From: Opitutia bacterium
GTDB lineage: Bacteria; Verrucomicrobiota; Verrucomicrobiia; Opitutales; Opitutaceae
Assembly (NCBI GenBank): GCA_003157575.1
Contig: PMKA01000311.1
Span: 1-19,322 of the forward strand
Direction: 5' to 3'
DNA length: 19,322 nucleotides
A program made the position numbers and the translations under genes. A model generated the notes under the pieces. That model was not told the origin of the DNA. It saw nothing but the letters and a program-made list of their open reading frames with translations, and searched no databases. Of this stretch, positions 10,208-19,322 are shown one piece after another. The stretch's first letter is position 1. Each line of letters opens with the position of its first letter.

Positions 10208-11917
10208 ATGTCCCAATCGACCATGAACGATCCTGTGCCGCCAGCCGCCGGGCCGCCCCCGGGCACCTCCCTTGCGCTGATTCTGGCCGGGGTGATCCTC
10301 CTTATGGGATCGTGGACGCTGCCGGTGAACCTGAAGTCGCTCAGCCCGGTGCTCCTGCAGGAGGCCGGTCGCGACACGCCATCGCTCACGGACTTTGGCC
10401 TGCAGCTCGTCGAATCGGAGAAACCCGGCCCCGCAGAAATGGTCCTCGCAGCCGCCCGGCAGGTCGGCGACCCGGGCGTTGCACGACTGGAGAACGCGCT
10501 GACCGCGTTTGGCGCGCGGCAGCGGGAATTCGTGGCCTGGGGCGGCTGGGATCCGTTTCTCGACCCGCTGTTCAATCTCAAGGAAAACACCGGCCGGACC
10601 GGGAGCACGCCGGTCCTCGAGTTCTTCATCACCGGGGAGGCGCGCGATTCGTTGCACCGCTATCTGGCGAAATCGCGCTCGCCGGGCGTCCAGGCCGTGA
10701 TGCAGACCCGGGACATCACCGGGATGGCGCGCTTCGTGCCGGCAAGCCTTCCCGGCGGGCAGGCCCTCGATTCCGTGATCCTCCTCACCGCGTTGCTCTA
10801 TCAGGGCGAACACCTGTCGCCGTCGCTTCAGCGCGAGATCAAGCGGCTCGCCGACGACGCGGTCCGGACGAACCACCTGGGCGACCTTGAATGGACCTTC
10901 CTCGACCTGCTGGCCCTGAGCCGCCGTCTCAACTGGATCCAGCTCTGCGAACTTCTCCGCATGACCAACGACACCCGGACGGTCAACGGGTTCGCACACC
11001 TGGCGCAGGTAGCGCCCGACCAGCTGCCGCTTCTCTATTCCGCCGCCCTTTTCACCGGATCGGCCGACAGCGTCGAGCGGTATCTTCTCGCCTATGGCAA
11101 GGCCGGCGCCGACGACCTCCGTCTCGCGCTGGGGCTCGGACAAGGGGCCGTCGAACAGTTGCTGCTCCGGCAGGTGCCGGTCAACCGGGGAATGACCGCT
11201 CCGCTCCATTTCACAGGAGCGTTTCCGCTGCTGCACCCGAGGCTCGCCCTCCTGGCAAAGTATGTCGGCTATCTGCTGGGCGCCTTTCTGCTTCTTCGCG
11301 GACTCGACCGGTGGCTGTTCGCCCCGCTGCGGCGGGCCGCGCGCAGGGCCGGGGACGCGAAGATGCTTCCGCGCGTGCAGAGCGGCGCCTTCGCGGTGCT
11401 CATCGCCTTCGTCATCGTCATCACGACCGAGCCTTTTCTCCTCCGCGCCGCGCCGCCCTCGGAATACCGGGTCAGGCTCGTCATCCCGGTTCTGGCCAAC
11501 GCCGCCGCGCCCGCTCCAACACCTTCAACATCGACTCCCCCCACCATGGACAAATCCACCATCATCTCCATCGGCGTCTTCGCACTGTTCCAGATCGTGA
11601 CCTACATGGTCTGCCTGATGAAAATCGCCGAGATCGACCGGCAGGACCTCACGCCCGCGCTCAAGCTGCGCCTCATGGAAAACGAGGAGAACCTTTTTGA
11701 CAGCGGCCTCTACGTCGGCATGACGGGCACCGCCACCGCTCTCGTCCTGCAGGTGGTGGGAGTGATCGAGCCCAACCTGCTCGCCGCCTACTCCTCCAAT
11801 CTGTTCGGCATCGTCTGCGTGGCCTTCGTCAAGATCCGCCACGTGCGGACCTACAAACGCCAGCTCATCCTCGCCGCCCAGCGGATCGCCGCCCCGGCCG
11901 CGCCGGTCGCGTCATGA
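10208..11917 (+). CDS. Multi-pass membrane protein of unknown family
   Basis: About 569 residues from the ATG at 10208; a second in-frame ATG at 10223 is equally possible. I do not recognise the family. Segment 1 (residues 21-40, LALILAGVILLMGSW) is followed by a roughly 300-residue soluble, mostly helical region rich in Leu and Arg. Hydrophobic segments then lie near 351-372, 394-414, 451-473, 501-521 and 526-545. Between segments 3 and 4 is a Pro/Ala/Thr linker (APAPTPSTSTPPT) followed by a Met codon at 11546 (MDKSTIISIGVF). This could mark a fusion of two formerly separate membrane proteins. The stop overlaps the next start by ATGA, implying translational coupling with the coiled-coil protein downstream. 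The function cannot be inferred; the layout suggests an envelope complex. Confidence 0.8.
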   Translation: MSQSTMNDPVPPAAGPPPGTSLALILAGVILLMGSWTLPVNLKSLSPVLLQEAGRDTPSLTDFGLQLVESEKPGPAEMVLAAARQVGDPGVARLENALTAFGARQREFVAWGGWDPFLDPLFNLKENTGRTGSTPVLEFFITGEARDSLHRYLAKSRSPGVQAVMQTRDITGMARFVPASLPGGQALDSVILLTALLYQGEHLSPSLQREIKRLADDAVRTNHLGDLEWTFLDLLALSRRLNWIQLCELLRMTNDTRTVNGFAHLAQVAPDQLPLLYSAALFTGSADSVERYLLAYGKAGADDLRLALGLGQGAVEQLLLRQVPVNRGMTAPLHFTGAFPLLHPRLALLAKYVGYLLGAFLLLRGLDRWLFAPLRRAARRAGDAKMLPRVQSGAFAVLIAFVIVITTEPFLLRAAPPSEYRVRLVIPVLANAAAPAPTPSTSTPPTMDKSTIISIGVFALFQIVTYMVCLMKIAEIDRQDLTPALKLRLMENEENLFDSGLYVGMTGTATALVLQVVGVIEPNLLAAYSSNLFGIVCVAFVKIRHVRTYKRQLILAAQRIAAPAAPVAS

Positions 11918-13320
11918 ACAAGACGCTCCTGCTGATCATCGTCGATTTCCTCTTCCTGAACCTCATCGCGCTCACGCGTTGGGAGAAGGCGGAGCCGTCC
12001 CGTCCGCAGCAGCTTCCGGTGCCGGAGATGGCCGGAAAGCCCGGCAAACTGCCGCCGCGCGACCAGGACCTCGTCGAGGTCATGCGCCTTTCGCTCGCCG
12101 ACGAGCAGAAGTCCCGTGAACAGACCTCCTCACAGCTTCAAGCGGCGCAGGCCGAGGTCCAGACGAAGGAGCAGGATCTCTCCCGGCTCCAGACCGCCCG
12201 GGTGCAGCTCGAGTCGTCGCTCGCCGGCACGCAGCAGAGCGTCCGCGACTTGAACGAACGGGTCGCCGCGGCCGCGCAGGAGCGGGACATGACTAAGGAG
12301 CGCCTCGCGAAGATCCAGCGACAGTTTGAGGACAAGCAGTCCGAGGCCGACCGCCAGAAACAGCAGCTCGCGGCCCTGGCGCAGCAGCAGAGCGACGCCC
12401 AGCAGCGCATCGAGGGCCTCAATGTCGCGGTCAGGGTCGCCGAACAGGAGAAGGCGCTCCTGCGCTCGAGCCTCGACGAGGCCAGACGAGAGGTGGAGAA
12501 CGAGCGTCTGGAGCGGCAGAAGGTGATGGCGCAGACCGGCCAGCTGGCTGAGGGCGTGGGACAGCTCGCGAAGAAATCCGGCGAGATCGCCCAGGAGATC
12601 CGCTCCAACCAGCCGATCAACGCCAACACCCTGTTCAACGATTTTCTCAACAACCGCGTGTCCGCCACCTTCTCCGCCTACCGGAAGGTTCTCATCGGAT
12701 CGGGCAACCACGTGAAGGACACCCGGACGGTGCTGGTGACGGACGGCAAGGCCGTTTACGCCTTGCTGCACGCGAACGAGACGCCGTTCCCCGTGAGCGC
12801 GACCGCGGAACCTCCCGACGACTGGGAGCGGATCACCGGGGAGTTCGGCCGGCCGCCCGTCATGGCGCCGGTCGGCGTGTTCCAGTTTCTCGCCCTCGAC
12901 CCGCGGTTGATCGTGATCCCCGTGGACGAAGAGCTCGCGGCGCGCATGGGCGTGAAGGTGTACAGGACCGCCGCCGAGCCGTTCAAATTTCCCGACGCGG
13001 TCCTTGTCAGCCGGGGCGGCGCCGGCTACGGCGAGGTTCCTTTCAAGGTCGATCCGCAGACGCCCCAATACGTCCGGATGGACAACCGGATCATCAAGCA
13101 CCTGATCGGCGAATTCACGCCGACCGCCGGAGACTTGGTGTTCTCGAAAACCGGTGATCTGATCGGGATGATGGTCAACAGCGACTATTGCGCCGTGGTC
13201 GACAGTTTTCTTCATACCCGGACGATCACGACGGGCGAAGACACCCTCGATCAGCATACCGGCAGCATCCTCGCCGAGAGAAATTCCCGTCTGCTGCGGC
13301 TGCCCTCCCGCCTGCAGTAG
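11914..13320 (+). CDS. Membrane-anchored coiled-coil protein with a possible inactive trypsin-like domain
   Basis: A 468-residue protein. An N-terminal anchor (residues 3-20, KTLLLIIVDFLFLNLIAL) precedes a Gln/Glu/Lys/Arg-rich heptad region from about residue 45 to 225, a long coiled coil. The final 220 residues are globular. They end with FTPTAGDLVFSKTGDLIGMM (around 401-420), which resembles the segment around the active-site serine of trypsin-like proteases (GNSGGPVF...G.viGi), but the Ser is replaced (TAGD, 404-407) and no clear His/Asp pair is seen. A catalytically dead protease-fold domain is therefore an inference, not a firm call. Translation probably couples to the membrane protein upstream through the 4-base overlap. 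The likely location is the cytoplasmic membrane with a large soluble part; the side facing out is undetermined. Confidence 0.8.
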   Translation: MNKTLLLIIVDFLFLNLIALTRWEKAEPSRPQQLPVPEMAGKPGKLPPRDQDLVEVMRLSLADEQKSREQTSSQLQAAQAEVQTKEQDLSRLQTARVQLESSLAGTQQSVRDLNERVAAAAQERDMTKERLAKIQRQFEDKQSEADRQKQQLAALAQQQSDAQQRIEGLNVAVRVAEQEKALLRSSLDEARREVENERLERQKVMAQTGQLAEGVGQLAKKSGEIAQEIRSNQPINANTLFNDFLNNRVSATFSAYRKVLIGSGNHVKDTRTVLVTDGKAVYALLHANETPFPVSATAEPPDDWERITGEFGRPPVMAPVGVFQFLALDPRLIVIPVDEELAARMGVKVYRTAAEPFKFPDAVLVSRGGAGYGEVPFKVDPQTPQYVRMDNRIIKHLIGEFTPTAGDLVFSKTGDLIGMMVNSDYCAVVDSFLHTRTITTGEDTLDQHTGSILAERNSRLLRLPSRLQ

Positions 13321-15500: not shown

Positions 15501-17213
15501 TCATCCTGAAGCACTGGGATTGCCGCCTTCATCCGGGGTCCTGGCCCCGGTCCGCAGGGTGAGCCATCCCAGCGCGGCCAGCGCCGCGCAGACCGCGACA
15601 AACCAGTCGCCGTGTTCGACGTAGAAGCTCCGGCGTCCGATCCAGCGCACATCGCGGGAAACGCCGATCGTGGCCTGGCCCTCGAAATAGACAGTTGCGC
15701 CGGCAATCCCCGGCCTTGTGTGGATCATTCCGTCCGCGTCGCGCGTGAGCACGTTGCGGATCGAGCCGAATTCGTCGATCCATCCGCTCCAGCCGTTGTT
15801 GCCGCAGCGCAGGACGGGCCGGCGTGTCTCGACGGCGCGGAGCACGGAATGCGCAGCATGCTGGTAGGCCGCGCCGCCCTCGCCATACCAGGCGTCGTTG
15901 GTCGCCACAAAAAGGATGTCGGCGCCATCGCGCACATCGGCGCAGGCAAGTGCGGGAAAGATGTCCTCGAAACAAATGAGGGGACCGATGGCCAGCGATT
16001 CCTTGTGCACCGGGACCAGCAGCGGGGCGGCCGTCCGGCCACGCGCAAAATCGTCGCCTATCGGCACGAACTTGTTCAGCCAGCCGAGCACGGGCCGCAG
16101 CGGAACATATTCGCCGAAGGGCACGAGATGCCGCTTGGAATAATACGCGGTCTGAAGGCCCAGATCGGGCGCCACAACGAACATTCCGTTGTACCAGGCC
16201 TCATCGGATTTTCCCGGGCTCTCGATCGCGATCGACCCGAGGACCAGCGGAGCCTTTGCGCGGGCCACAAGCGACTCGACCCATTCGCGAATCCGGTCGT
16301 CGCCGCGGACCGCCCACGGTGTGCACGCTTCCGGCCAGAGGATGAGATCGGGTTCGTTCATCGCCGCAAGCAGCGTGACTTTCTCCAGCGTTTCGAAGAT
16401 CGCCCCGCTCTTTGTCGGATCCCATTTCACATCCTGGGGAATCGCGGGCTGCACGAAGGCGACCCGGGCCGCCGGCAGCGAGAAGCGCGCGCGGTTGAAC
16501 GTCTCCTGCACCTGCACGCTGACGCACACCATCAACAGGAACAGGGCGAAAAGAAATTCAGGGCGTCGCAGCCGCCAGCCCGTCTGGCGGTCGTGGAAAA
16601 GGCTGTGGGCCACGGCGGCGAATCCGATGTTCACCGCGACGAGCACGAACGAGACGCCGCCCGCGCCCGTGAACGCCGCGATCTGAAGCACGCTTGTGCG
16701 CTGCCACTGGCTCGCCGCGAGCGGCAGCCACGGGAATCCGCCGAGCAGCCAGGTCCGCGTCCACTCGACGATCACCCACCCCGCCGCGAGCGCCGCCAGC
16801 CCCAGCAGACGCGTGGCAGCGGGCCGGCCGGTCATCCGCGGCATCGTCCACCACGCCGCCAGATACCACACGCCCACCCACGCGCCGACGACCGGGCCGA
16901 CGAGAAAAAGGCCGGCCCACGTGACCGGATGCAGCCACCACAGGATGGCGGTCCACGCCGCCGCCTGCGCCGCAAACAGCGTGCATGCGAACCGCCGGAA
17001 CGGGGGACGTCGGTAGGCCCACAACAGCGCCGGCACGGCAAACGCATAGGCGCATTGCGGAGCGTTGTAAGGCGGGAACGAGAGCACCGTGAGCACGGCG
17101 GTCAACACGCCGACGCTCACCGCCCACACCAAGTCGGAATGCCGCCTCCACCACGGCGGCGGCACATCGTAGGGATCGGGGGCGGAGGAGGTCACTTCAG
17201 GGTTCGTGGGCAC
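15501..17213 (-). CDS. lnt: Apolipoprotein N-acyltransferase
   Basis: A 570-residue inner-membrane enzyme that adds the third acyl chain to the N-terminal cysteine of lipoproteins. About the first 245 residues hold multiple transmembrane segments. A nitrilase-like periplasmic domain follows (RVAFVQPAIPQDVKWDP, from about 250), and a last hydrophobic helix (FVAVCAALAALGWLTL) is near the end. The catalytic triad is intact: E295 in LWPEACTPW, K360 in YYSKRHLVPFGEYVP and C414 in ICFEDIFP, equivalent to E267/K335/C387 of E. coli. The start is uncertain: a GTG at 17213 gives MPTNPEVTSSAPDPYD, and no ATG is available before the first membrane segment. A REP element lies 10 bases upstream of this GTG. 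In many bacteria lnt neighbours ybeX; here it lies beyond the RAYT gene from secA. Confidence 0.95.
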   Translation of the reverse strand: MPTNPEVTSSAPDPYDVPPPWWRRHSDLVWAVSVGVLTAVLTVLSFPPYNAPQCAYAFAVPALLWAYRRPPFRRFACTLFAAQAAAWTAILWWLHPVTWAGLFLVGPVVGAWVGVWYLAAWWTMPRMTGRPAATRLLGLAALAAGWVIVEWTRTWLLGGFPWLPLAASQWQRTSVLQIAAFTGAGGVSFVLVAVNIGFAAVAHSLFHDRQTGWRLRRPEFLFALFLLMVCVSVQVQETFNRARFSLPAARVAFVQPAIPQDVKWDPTKSGAIFETLEKVTLLAAMNEPDLILWPEACTPWAVRGDDRIREWVESLVARAKAPLVLGSIAIESPGKSDEAWYNGMFVVAPDLGLQTAYYSKRHLVPFGEYVPLRPVLGWLNKFVPIGDDFARGRTAAPLLVPVHKESLAIGPLICFEDIFPALACADVRDGADILFVATNDAWYGEGGAAYQHAAHSVLRAVETRRPVLRCGNNGWSGWIDEFGSIRNVLTRDADGMIHTRPGIAGATVYFEGQATIGVSRDVRWIGRRSFYVEHGDWFVAVCAALAALGWLTLRTGARTPDEGGNPSASG

Positions 17214-17223
17214 GTTCGCGGTT

Positions 17224-17246
17224 TGTAGGAGCCTGCTCGCAGGCGA
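17224..17246 (+). repeat. REP element, copy 1
   Basis: GTAG precedes the stem GCCTGC-TC-GCAGGC. It is followed by ATTCTGTGTCT, making a 33-base unit directly joined to copy 2. It lies 10 bases upstream of the lnt start codon. Confidence 0.9.
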
Positions 17247-17256
17247 TTCTGTGTCT

Positions 17257-17279
17257 TGTAGGAGCCTGTTTACAGGCGA
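17257..17279 (+). repeat. REP element, copy 2
   Basis: GTAG plus stem GCCTGT-TT-ACAGGC. Relative to copy 1, the terminal C:G pair of the stem is replaced by T:A on both arms, so pairing is preserved. It starts exactly 33 bases after copy 1. Confidence 0.9.
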
Positions 17280-17288
17280 ATGGAAGGA

Positions 17289-17311
17289 TCGCTTGCAAGC
17301 AAGCTCCTACA
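17289..17311 (-). repeat. REP element, copy 3 (inverted)
   Basis: It lies on the minus strand, with GTAG then GCTTGC-TT-GCAAGC. Here the third stem pair is T:A instead of C:G, again changed on both arms. Together with copies 1 and 2 it forms a head-to-tail and inverted cluster. Confidence 0.9.
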
Positions 17312-17345
17312 ACTCGCGTTGAATTCGGAGCCAGGATTCCGATCG

Positions 17346-17368
17346 TGTAGGAGCCTGCTTGCAGGCGA
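17346..17368 (+). repeat. REP element, copy 4
   Basis: GTAG plus GCCTGC-TT-GCAGGC, the apparent consensus form. It lies 25 bases beyond the stop codon of the RAYT gene. Confidence 0.9.
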
Positions 17369-17393
17369 AAATATGCCTCCGGCAGCCGGACGC

Positions 17394-17912
17394 CTACCCG
17401 GCAAGCCACTCCGGCGGCGGACGATCCTGATCGAGGTAGCTATGGAACCATTCCCAATCCTGCGGCCTGCAATAGAACCAAGGCCAGCGATCCATGCGCC
17501 TCGCAAGGTGAGCCCTGTATGGATTGAGATAGATGTAGAGGAAAACATCGAGAGCATCGTCTGACGCACGAAGGCGATGATCGAAGAAGTCGCGTTCCCA
17601 ATCGATCCTTTCAGCACGTAGACCCTCTGACGTCTTGGCCTTGAGACGTTGAATCGATCGACCGAGCGGGAGTCGCTCCCCGAGAATCGCCAAAACGTGA
17701 ATATGGTCCGGCATGATCCCGACACAGCGCAGTATCCACGTTCCATCGCGATCCATGGCCTTCAGCTCAAGCATGACGGCCTCGCCAACTTCCGTGGTTG
17801 TGAGGCCCACTCGTCGGCCATCGGTGCAGACCGTCAGAAAATACTCCGCTCCCGGCGCCGAGATCCGTCCGCGGCGGAGAGAAGCTCGACCTTTTGCCGG
17901 ATTCATGGTCAT
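17394..17912 (-). CDS. REP-associated tyrosine transposase (RAYT, Y1/HUH family)
   Basis: A 172-residue single-domain protein, close to the usual RAYT size. The HUH metal-binding motif is PDHIHVL with H70 and H72. The tyrosine helix is FLYIYLNPYRAHL (124-136), matching the family pattern Y-I-x-x-N-P-x-R-A, so Y126 is the likely nucleophile (Y128 is an alternative). The opening (RRGRISAPGAEYFLTVCTDG) is the typical beta-strand start. Such enzymes nick single-stranded DNA at a GTRG tetranucleotide beside a REP hairpin and are thought to spread REPs. The gene is flanked by four REPs on its 3' side and six on its 5' side, all with GTAG, a strong sign that enzyme and repeats match. It looks intact and is visibly less GC-rich than its neighbours, consistent with horizontal gain. 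ATG at 17912 (or 17906); a REP hairpin sits 5 bases upstream. Confidence 0.94.
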   Translation of the reverse strand: MTMNPAKGRASLRRGRISAPGAEYFLTVCTDGRRVGLTTTEVGEAVMLELKAMDRDGTWILRCVGIMPDHIHVLAILGERLPLGRSIQRLKAKTSEGLRAERIDWERDFFDHRLRASDDALDVFLYIYLNPYRAHLARRMDRWPWFYCRPQDWEWFHSYLDQDRPPPEWLAG

Positions 17913-17917
17913 CGAGC

Positions 17918-17940
17918 TGTAGGAGCCTGCTTGCGGGCGA
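17918..17940 (+). repeat. REP element, copy 5 at the RAYT start
   Basis: GTAG plus GCCTGC-TT-GCGGGC; the stem keeps pairing through one T:G wobble. It ends five bases from the RAYT ATG, in the untranslated leader if transcription begins upstream, where a hairpin could affect ribosome access. Confidence 0.88.
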
Positions 17941-18013
17941 AAATACTACAAGTACGTAATTTCCCCTAACGCGCTTTTCGCGGACACTACACACGAAGGG
18001 ATCGAGCCCCGGA

Positions 18014-18036
18014 TCGCTTGCGAGCAAGCTCCTACA
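18014..18036 (-). repeat. REP element, copy 6 (inverted)
   Basis: On the minus strand, GTAG plus GCTTGC-TC-GCAAGC. It shares with inverted copy 3 the T:A third stem pair and the plus-strand flank GGATCGCTTGC, so the two form a sub-class. Confidence 0.9.
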
Positions 18037-18065
18037 ATGCGGATCGCAATGCGGGGAGTCCGGCC

Positions 18066-18088
18066 TGTAGGAGCCTGTTTACAGGCGA
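18066..18088 (+). repeat. REP element, copy 7
   Basis: GTAG plus GCCTGT-TT-ACAGGC, identical in stem to copies 2, 8 and 9. It is the first of three direct repeats at 33-base spacing; its spacer is ATTCTGATTC. Confidence 0.9.
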
Positions 18089-18098
18089 TTCTGATTCT

Positions 18099-18121
18099 TG
18101 TAGGAGCCTGTTTACAGGCGA
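18099..18121 (+). repeat. REP element, copy 8
   Basis: GTAG plus GCCTGT-TT-ACAGGC. The spacer to copy 9 begins ATTCTGTGTC, the same as the spacer between copies 1 and 2 more than 800 bases away. Confidence 0.9.
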
Positions 18122-18131
18122 TTCTGTGTCT

Positions 18132-18154
18132 TGTAGGAGCCTGTTTACAGGCGA
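18132..18154 (+). repeat. REP element, copy 9
   Basis: GTAG plus GCCTGT-TT-ACAGGC, the third direct copy at 33-base spacing. It is followed nine bases later by an inverted copy, making a paired REP (BIME-like) unit. Confidence 0.9.
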
Positions 18155-18162
18155 AAATGACA

Positions 18163-18185
18163 TCGCCTGCAAGCAGGCTCCTACA
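18163..18185 (-). repeat. REP element, copy 10 (inverted)
   Basis: On the minus strand, GTAG plus GCCTGC-TT-GCAGGC, the consensus stem. It faces copy 9 across eight bases and is the outermost REP on the secA side. Confidence 0.9.
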
Positions 18186-18199
18186 GGGTCTCCGAAGAA

Positions 18200-18230
18200 C
18201 CGGCGGCGGTCGGTGGGTTCCCGCCGCCGG
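18200..18230 (-). terminator. secA: Strong hairpin after secA
   Basis: CCGGCGGCGG (18200-18209) pairs perfectly with CCGCCGCCGG (18221-18230) around an 11-base loop. It starts five bases past the secA stop. The RNA after the stem is only modestly U-rich (GTTCTTCGG as DNA), so it may end transcription imperfectly or protect the 3' end. It is not part of the REP family. Confidence 0.55.
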
Positions 18231-18235
18231 GGAGT

Positions 18236-19322
18236 TCACTTTCCGTGGCACTGCTTGTACTTCTTGCCGCTGCCGCAGGGACACGGATCGTTGCGGCCGA
18301 CCTTCGGGGCCTCGCGGCGGACGGTGACGCGCGGCAGCTGGATCTCGGGCTCGGCTGACGCCGGCCCCTGCCCGCCCTCGCCTTCCGCCTGGGGAATCTC
18401 ACCCCCGCCGTCCCGGCGGGGCGTCGCGCCGGGTGCGGCCGCCGGCGCAGGCCGCGGCGCCGCGGCTCCACCTCCGACGGGCGCCGCCGTCTCCGGCCCC
18501 TGCAGGCGCGCGCTGCGCGAGAGGATCGACAGCATGTTCTCGAACGCCTGCAGATTCGTGGTCGACCGGAAGAGCCCGGTGCAGATCTGGAGGCGCACAT
18601 TGTTCATCAGCTCCTCGAAAAAGCGATAGGCCTCGCCTTTGTACTCCTGCAGCGGGTCCTTCTGCCCGTAACTCCTCAGGCCGATCGAGCGGCGCAACTC
18701 TTCCATCTCGGTGAGGTGCTCCTGCCAGTGGTGGTCGATGGCGTTGATGACCACGTACCGTTCCAGCCCGGCAAGCGCCTCCGCAACCTCAACCGACTCC
18801 TTGACGGAATACGCCTTCTTGATCCGCTCCGACAGGAGCGCGAGCGCCGCCTTGCCGTCCTTCCCGTCGAATTCGGCGATCTTGAGGGCGATGGGAAAGT
18901 GCGAGTTCACCCAGCCGACCAGGCTCTCAACCGCGGCGGGCACGGGACCCGTCTTTGTGTCAAAGCCGGCGGCCTCGAGGCGCTCCGCAATCTCCTCCTC
19001 GACCATGTCGAAAATGATGTCCTTCGGCCGCTCGCTGTGGATCGCTCCGTTGCGGATCCCGTAGATGACCTCGCGCTGCTTGTTGAGGACGTCGTCGTAC
19101 TGCAGCAGCCGCTTGCGGATGGCGAAATTCTGCTGCTCGACCTTTTTCTGGGCGCTCTCGATCGAGCGGTTGAGCCATGGATGCTCCAGCTCCTCGCCCT
19201 CTTTCATCGAGCCCTCCATCAGCCGGGAGGCGATGTTGCCCTGGAGAAAGATGCGCAGCAACTCGTCCTCGAGCGAGAGGAAGAACTTGCTAAGGCCCGG
19301 GTCGCCCTGGCGCGCGCAACGG
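18236..19322 (-). CDS. secA: Preprotein translocase ATPase SecA, C-terminal part (truncated by window edge)
   Basis: The last 361 residues of SecA, the ATPase motor that drives unfolded proteins through SecYEG; the 5' part lies beyond the window. The visible start reads [20 protein letters not shown] then LLRIF, the end of the second nucleotide-binding fold and start of the helical region. In E. coli this stretch reads GRSGRQGDPGSSRFYLS; here S/G are replaced by C/A. The helical wing/scaffold region follows ([20 protein letters not shown] then [13 protein letters not shown]), with [20 protein letters not shown] and [15 protein letters not shown] Gly/Ala/Pro-rich linker of about 60 residues precedes the zinc-binding tail [18 protein letters not shown], the site that binds SecB/ribosome in other bacteria. 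It is followed by a strong hairpin and the REP cluster. Confidence 0.97.

Follow-up and report, generated by a model that had tools for sequence, protein, structure and literature searches.

The window analysed here is a stretch of 19,322 nucleotides from the genome of an uncultured, Opitutaceae-like relative of Opitutus (G000; 3.99 Mb in 546 contigs, 73.6% complete). Near its end it carries three co-directional genes on the minus strand: lnt (apolipoprotein N-acyltransferase, 15501..17213; TIGR00546, 278.5 bits), a gene for a TnpAREP-type HUH/Y1 protein of 172 aa, the RAYT (17394..17912), and the 3' part of secA (18236..19322, continuing past the window end; SecA_SW and SEC-C domains). The RAYT gene lies in the gap between lnt and the 3' end of secA, with secA as its upstream and lnt as its downstream neighbour, and these two genes serve as markers of the locus in the comparisons below.

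Ten 23-base REP elements resembling TGTAGGAGCYTGYTYRCARGCGA lie on both sides of the RAYT gene, seven on the plus and three on the minus strand, all of them where the original prediction had placed them around an intact RAYT. Nine follow exactly the 20-base core pattern GTAG-N2-GCYTGY-N2-RCARGC, which is the exact REP pattern of this work, and one has a T:G pair; the cores start at 17225, 17258, 17347, 17919, 18067, 18100 and 18133 on the plus strand and at 17291, 18016 and 18165 on the minus strand. On the lnt side, REP 1 (17224..17246, plus; stem GCCTGC/GCAGGC, loop TC) is followed by REP 2 (17257..17279, plus; GCCTGT/ACAGGC, loop TT) and REP 3 (17289..17311, minus; GCTTGC/GCAAGC, loop TT), which together form a head-out pair, i.e. 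a REPIN (17258-17310), while REP 4 (17346..17368, plus; GCCTGC/GCAGGC, loop TT) lies immediately beyond the RAYT stop codon. On the secA side, REP 5 (17918..17940, plus; GCCTGC/GCGGGC, with the single T:G pair) ends 5 bases upstream of the RAYT ATG and makes a head-out pair (17919-18035) with REP 6 (18014..18036, minus; GCTTGC/GCAAGC, loop TC). REP 7 (18066..18088), REP 8 (18099..18121) and REP 9 (18132..18154), all on the plus strand with the stem GCCTGT/ACAGGC, are units 1, 2 and partial unit 3 of a 33-bp head-to-tail tandem (18066-18154), beyond which lies REP 10 (18163..18185, minus; GCCTGC/GCAGGC, loop TT). The same 33-base head-to-tail step occurs on the other side of the RAYT gene (17225-17277), a pattern suggestive of local copying or conversion from one flank to the other. 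Elsewhere in the window (10235-13320), two adjacent genes with a four-base overlap encode proteins of 560 and 468 aa with no Pfam match at E 0.001, and the Rfam search of the window returned no RNA family at the gathering score.

The RAYT frame is open over all 172 aa, with no internal stop, and its product passes the profiles Y1_Tnp (PF01797; 25.4 bits, cut-off 23) and REP_Tyr_transpos, the NCBIfam model of REP-associated transposases (NF047646; 85.4 bits, cut-off 80). It exhibits the HUH motif as H70-I-H72 and a candidate catalytic tyrosine, Y126. Sequence comparison identified 4er8, the structure of E. coli TnpAREP with a bound REP hairpin (E 1e-6), and the fold search with the predicted model of the RAYT (pLDDT 87.9, from 15 sequences) returned the same structure at rank 1 (E 7.5e-8), followed by the IS608 and ISDra2 transposases. 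The HUH motif is present in 11 of 11 aligned RAYT copies and the tyrosine in 10, the exception being a copy from the relative G122 whose frame is broken near this residue. The HUH motif with the tyrosine, the NF047646 match and flanking REPs that recur genome-wide place the protein in the RAYT/TnpAREP family. A plain IS200/IS605 element, for which several near-identical transposase copies per genome would be expected, was rejected, as such a set of copies was not what was found. In G000 (73.6% complete) there are 5 matches to Y1_Tnp and 7 loose matches to NF047646, of which the window RAYT alone scores above the cut-off, and a search with the RAYT protein gave 2 matches, the window RAYT being the only one among the matches listed. 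Other Y1 or RAYT-like genes of G000 were also discarded as the source of the REPs: those on contigs C19, C126 and C492 have no exact REP in the flanks examined, and those on C219 and C350 have a REP on the same contig at a distance of more than 1 kb (C514 and C146 were left out of this comparison).

REP structure and dispersal in the host genome

With up to 3 mismatches, the REP pattern has 19 matches in the window, several of them the same palindromes seen from the opposite strand, versus a mean of 1.66 in shuffled sequences, and none of 200 shuffles reached 19. The exact pattern occurs in G000 in 58 + 51 = 109 copies, its reversed control in 1 + 0. Together with the flank controls described below, these results rule out chance palindromes; confinement of the element to the window locus, which the original prediction had named as evidence against itself, was not what was found.

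The pairing test was anchored on GTAGGA-N14-GA only, in regions picked for containing REPs, and identified a fully paired 6-bp stem at 98 of 108 places in G000 DNA and at 90 of 100 in the congener G005, with four stem types. In G000, stem pairs 3, 4 and 6 are variable and mostly still paired, and pair 6 covaries (96 C-G, 8 T-A, 1 C-A). The architecture first read from the window, i.e. GTAG, two bases and a 6-bp stem with compensated changes around a 2-base loop, therefore holds beyond it, and the accompanying claim that structure has been preserved agrees with both the genome-wide count and the covariation of the sixth pair; the four stem types represent a small set of inherited variants rather than a large number of independent events. 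Computed folding favours 5 pairs with a 4-base loop rather than 6 with 2. Folded singly as DNA, 8 of the 10 window REPs give -2.4 to -4.4 kcal/mol, and relative to shuffled sequences the outcome ranges from no better (94 of 200 shuffles as good) to clearly better (1 of 200). Around the stem, GA follows GTAG in 98-100% of copies, the tail has GA in 97-100% and T as the next base in 77-86% (GTAG itself belonged to the search pattern in these counts), and T occupies the first loop position in all 98 fully paired REPs of G000 and in 89 of 90 of G005. The elements thus display the features of GTAG-1-type REPs: GTAG, GW, a stem of at least 5 bp, a loop of at least 2 bases and a short unpaired tail. 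A search for a conserved CT cleavage site next to the REPs found none, the dinucleotide occurring in no more than 0.22 of copies at each offset considered.

The placement of REPs was analysed in 544,148 bases of G000 DNA (48 contig stretches and the window, picked for holding REPs), which contain 120 copies with up to 4 mismatches at 61 sites; 65 copies in this DNA match the 22-base consensus exactly. Outside predicted genes lie 117 of the 120 (26.2 expected) and 100 of 106 in the G005 DNA examined (23.4 expected), the genes being predicted by a simple home-made caller that missed the RAYT gene itself. The genome-wide count and the test of intergenic enrichment, both proposed with the original prediction, thus came out in its favour.

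Of the pairs formed by neighbouring REPs up to 200 bases apart, G000 has 44 of 59 in head-out arrangement and G005 all of its 40. Nine G000 REPINs of 77 bp, found in both directions, have a common 33-base spacer (mean pairwise identity 28.1/33 versus 9.4 shuffled); inverted head-out pairs are therefore dispersed here as units, and their common spacer at scattered places requires copying. G005 has 24 REPINs of one fixed spacing (L165-L217) with arms 94% identical and 14-base spacers that agree weakly (7.2/14 versus 4.3 shuffled), so that spacer length is constant and spacer content changes. Seven sites, drawn from 38 flank matches (L100 and L127, which are not collinear, were excluded), are collinear between G000 and G005. 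A REP is common to four of them, two being the RAYT flanks, and is confined to G000 at three, where G005 has none within 400 bases of the place; as the G005 regions were taken around its own REPs only, the comparison favours sharing. REP-filled and empty gaps of the two genomes do not align base by base, and insertion junctions are unreadable.

RAYTs and REP classes in relatives

Among the 95 genomes searched, the exact REP was found in 22 and a RAYT-like gene in 53, and RAYT types tend to have a REP of their own. One mechanical rule, applied to 77 RAYT loci from relatives and G000 (matches spanning fewer than 100 model positions left out), found matching REPs on both sides of 43, and at none of 188 control windows or 385 shuffled flanks. 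Loci of one REP class cluster on the RAYT tree, with 28 class changes versus a shuffled mean of 45.7 (0 of 200 shuffles as low), under class labels that were set by hand and are incomplete, since 22 of 69 rows are labelled 'none' although some of them, such as L134 and L136, have REP-like flanks.

The association between RAYT and REP number can be seen in the 61 genomes of family code f1, which were searched regardless of REP number. A GCYTGY-flanked RAYT was found only in G000, G005 and G034, with 109, 88 and 30 REPs, whereas the median of the remaining 58 is 0 (p 5e-4); 8 of these have at least 10 REPs and no GCYTGY-flanked RAYT found. For the TCGGGS class, the five f1 genomes with such a RAYT have 12 to 240 copies, versus a median of 0 in the remaining 56 (p 1e-6); in this comparison G024 (104 copies; RAYTs unread), G028 and G060 were treated as lacking a TCGGGS-flanked RAYT. 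The cross tests between GCYTGY and TCGGGS were not significant (p 0.08 and 0.83). GCYTGY-flanked RAYTs are known from 13 genomes in all (G000, G005, G034, G242, G196, G129, G122, G126, G116, G276, G277, G252 and G183), each with at least 11 REPs; because ten of these were found among genomes picked for having at least 11 REPs, only G000, G005 and G034 count as a test. The 36 family genomes with at least 10 exact REPs comprise 30 that were searched, five that had been examined earlier (G000, G005, G034, G030 and G004) and G163, which was left out.

The correspondence between REP class and RAYT lineage is not one to one. RAYTs of only 36-40% identity (G183, G242) have GCYTGY flanks, while others of 55-56% identity (G030, G160) have GCTCGC flanks, and the GCYTGY RAYTs form no supported clade on the tree. 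The RAYT of G242 (377 REPs), though distant (39.5% identity), is flanked by the same GCYTGY REP on both sides, which indicates that one REP class can pair with more than one RAYT lineage.

Several single loci deserve mention in their own right. The GCTCGC-flanked RAYT L017 (G030:C102) has Ser at the catalytic Tyr column (FRSIFLNP), so this copy may be inactive despite its flanking REPs. G126 has two close RAYTs with two REP classes, GCYTGY at secA-lnt and GCGAGC elsewhere (L333, L312). The TCGGGS REPs have GTGG, not GTAG, in every listed copy (42 of 104 listed in G024; 21 of 21 in G060), and the region G023:C7:258708-267902 contains seven GCGAGC-class REPs within ~9 kb, all on the plus strand.

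The original prediction had also named as evidence against itself relatives that carry many of these REPs and lack any RAYT of its subgroup. As far as the RAYT loci were read, such relatives do occur. No GCYTGY-flanked RAYT was found in G138 (138 REPs; 6 of 13 RAYT matches read), G200 (134 REPs, one contig; 12 of 13), G047 (101 REPs, 98% complete; 14 of 15 loose matches), G194 (49 REPs; 2 of 5), G195 (46; 1 of 1), G257 (29; 3 of 4), G124 (27; 3 of 10), G002 (23; 1 of 1), G060 (21; 1 of 6) and G148 (20; 1 of 6), and G021 (25 REPs, 97% complete) gave no RAYT match at E 1e-3. One RAYT of G200 (L344), with near flanks of another class, has a REP pair ~590 bases away. These genomes indicate that REPs can outlast, or do without, a cognate-flanked RAYT. 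REPs without a cognate RAYT are described as frequent in PMC3686654, where most such cases are explained by loss of the RAYT or by a change to another REP class; this limits the general claim and leaves the identification of the window locus unaffected.

The secA-lnt gap and the history of the RAYT

A RAYT with REPs lies between secA and lnt also in G005 and G034. In a survey of named genomes covering the best 80 of 264 lnt loci, secA is upstream in 60 (in two cases at a distance above 2 kb), the median secA-lnt gap is 55 bases and a RAYT is present at 3 of the 60, in G005, G034 and G277 (L292, Opitutaceae bacterium TGS_VER1); the other 57 are without a RAYT, and in 56 of these the gap also lacks an exact REP. 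Searching 30 REP-rich genomes brought further copies at this place in G129, G116, G252, G196 and G126, and the broken one of G122. Ten genomes in total thus exhibit secA-RAYT-lnt, all in the same orientation, under the genus codes g1, g30, g37, g39, g40, g41 and g45. G276 has a GCYTGY-flanked RAYT with neither secA nor lnt in the 1.5 kb examined on each side. No RAYT match was found in the secA-lnt gap of G001, G002, G003, G021 and G030 (less than ~80 bases), G004 (~180) and G047 (~590), G001-G004 being congeners of the window's genome. In the wide gap of G047 (L163, about 2140-2620) there are frames that resemble a HicB/HicA pair by eye. REP/RAYT systems as a kind are known, and what is new here is the secA-lnt residence and the REP/RAYT record of the relatives: in the literature searched by title and abstract, outside subscription journals, the secA-lnt residence was not found in print, and PMC3733652 was the only paper found on REPs of Verrucomicrobia.

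RAYT identity among the ten secA-lnt copies is 0.49-0.63 whatever the species distance, that of lnt 0.46-0.82, and the two correlate weakly (r 0.24, Mantel p 0.05); the window RAYT is 57-58% identical to the G005 copy, lnt 82%. Such a pattern, together with the congeners G001-G004 that have no RAYT at this place, is what would be expected if the RAYT had entered the secA-lnt gap several times, or had been swapped between species by recombination in the flanks, instead of being inherited. We regard this as possible, if somewhat doubtful, because all ten copies are in one orientation, RAYT identity follows that of secA more closely (r 0.50), and the G000-G005 divergence of the RAYT at fourfold sites (0.58 and 0.53 by two calculations) still falls within the range of other genes, at its upper end (0.28-0.59; rows below 0.2 were interpreted as shadow frames and unused). 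The RAYT tree is nearly unresolved; its best guess makes the G000 and G005 copies sisters (63/85), which also speaks, weakly, against repeated entry, as does the AU test, which rejects none of the species clades held (p-AU 0.41, 0.24, 0.21). Owing to this lack of resolution, a claim of demonstrated vertical descent was dropped. One old entry followed by many losses is the history we prefer to repeated entry, short of considering it shown. A fuller version of it can be offered tentatively: the secA-lnt RAYT might be an ancient resident of the Opitutaceae that entered once before the genera split, is read together with secA and lnt, was kept in its orientation by selection for a host function and was lost many times, with REPs as by-products that multiply while it is present and persist afterwards.

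Mechanism and relation to known systems

The identification of the locus as a REP/RAYT system stood up well: the RAYT passes the family profiles, and matching REPs flank its gene and recur throughout the genome. A RAYT with its REPs is called a REPtron in PMC3733652, where RAYTs are reported to adjoin GTAG repeats in most species having them. The locus is most probably a GTAG-type REPtron, a kind already known, carried by an Opitutaceae-like bacterium, with the REPIN as the spreading unit and the RAYT as a resident at secA-lnt. The RAYT would bind single-stranded REP hairpins located after GTAG, and its tyrosine would, by analogy with the studied TnpAREP enzymes, cut and join single-stranded DNA beside them. 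The unit that spreads would mostly be the REPIN, ending up in intergenic DNA. The RAYT itself shows no such spreading behaviour: in a number of genera it stays at secA-lnt, flanked on either side by REPs. Elsewhere REPs would come and go and, after RAYT loss, persist for a time. As to the cut site, the original prediction of nicking at GTRG next to the hairpin held only in part: the E. coli enzyme is said to cleave the GTAG motif (PMC3733652), whereas the group 3 enzyme of S. maltophilia cuts at a CT dinucleotide, with GTAG and a loop base required for cutting and changes of GTAG tolerated in binding (PMC8266576).

It is unlikely that the system is a fossil, in which the RAYT is no longer active and the REPs are slowly decaying relics inherited by descent. 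RAYT identity is low everywhere, and the fast divergence of the RAYT could be decay; several relatives have many REPs and no cognate-flanked RAYT found, and the G122 copy at secA-lnt is frame-broken near the tyrosine. The open 172-aa frame in the window, the near-invariant HUH and tyrosine residues of the aligned copies, the 65 G000 REPs identical to the consensus and the three collinear gaps filled in G000 and empty in G005 argue against this reading. That the REPs are kept as regulatory hairpins (terminators or mRNA ends) of the secA-RAYT-lnt string, with copying incidental, has very little probability, since the co-directional genes and the 6 terminator-like sites in 17130-18300 (1.0 expected; 4 are REPs) are countered by the absence of T-runs in the tails after the REPs, by their inconstant strand, by the many named secA-lnt loci that have neither RAYT nor exact REP and by the scattered REPINs whose common spacer needs copying.

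The REPtron reading agrees with earlier descriptions. GTAG REPs are known in the PVC group, and Opitutus terrae was reported in 2013 to be highly enriched in them (PMC3733652); by published traits, the window REPs are like the GTAG-1 REPs of that work in the GTAG end, the following GA ('GW'), the stem of at least 5 bp, the short loop and tail, the head-out dimers and the clusters. They also resemble the group 3 TnpAREP/REP duos of S. maltophilia and Marinomonas (PMC8266576), which combine a short perfect palindrome after GTAG and a fixed loop base with HUH and Tyr in the protein; this likeness is by traits, not phylogeny, and the stem is of 6 bp with a 2-base loop here, whereas that of S. maltophilia has 8 bp and a 3-base loop. 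The dispersal of REPs as head-out pairs corresponds to the REPINs of PMC3116915 and PMC8049555. RAYTs are described in the latter as single-copy, vertically inherited and domesticated; the present case differs from that literature in its Opitutaceae-like host, in the position of the RAYT beside secA and lnt, and in the several RAYT-like genes per genome, with REP classes of their own, in many relatives. The RAYT orthogroups of PMC3686654 are alike in their common chromosomal places, changing REP classes and REP-rich strains without RAYT, although those cases fall within Pseudomonas and Stenotrophomonas, whereas here the pattern extends across genera of one Verrucomicrobiota family.

These results extend the coupling of REPs and RAYTs, worked out in proteobacteria, to a verrucomicrobial family. 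The family offers a natural experiment, with many RAYT-like genes that have REP classes of their own and one that sits at a fixed locus in some genomes and is missing from the same gap in close relatives. In such a family the loss of RAYTs and the decay of REPs could be dated, and why bacteria keep RAYTs would be easier to test at one chromosomal site, between secA and lnt.
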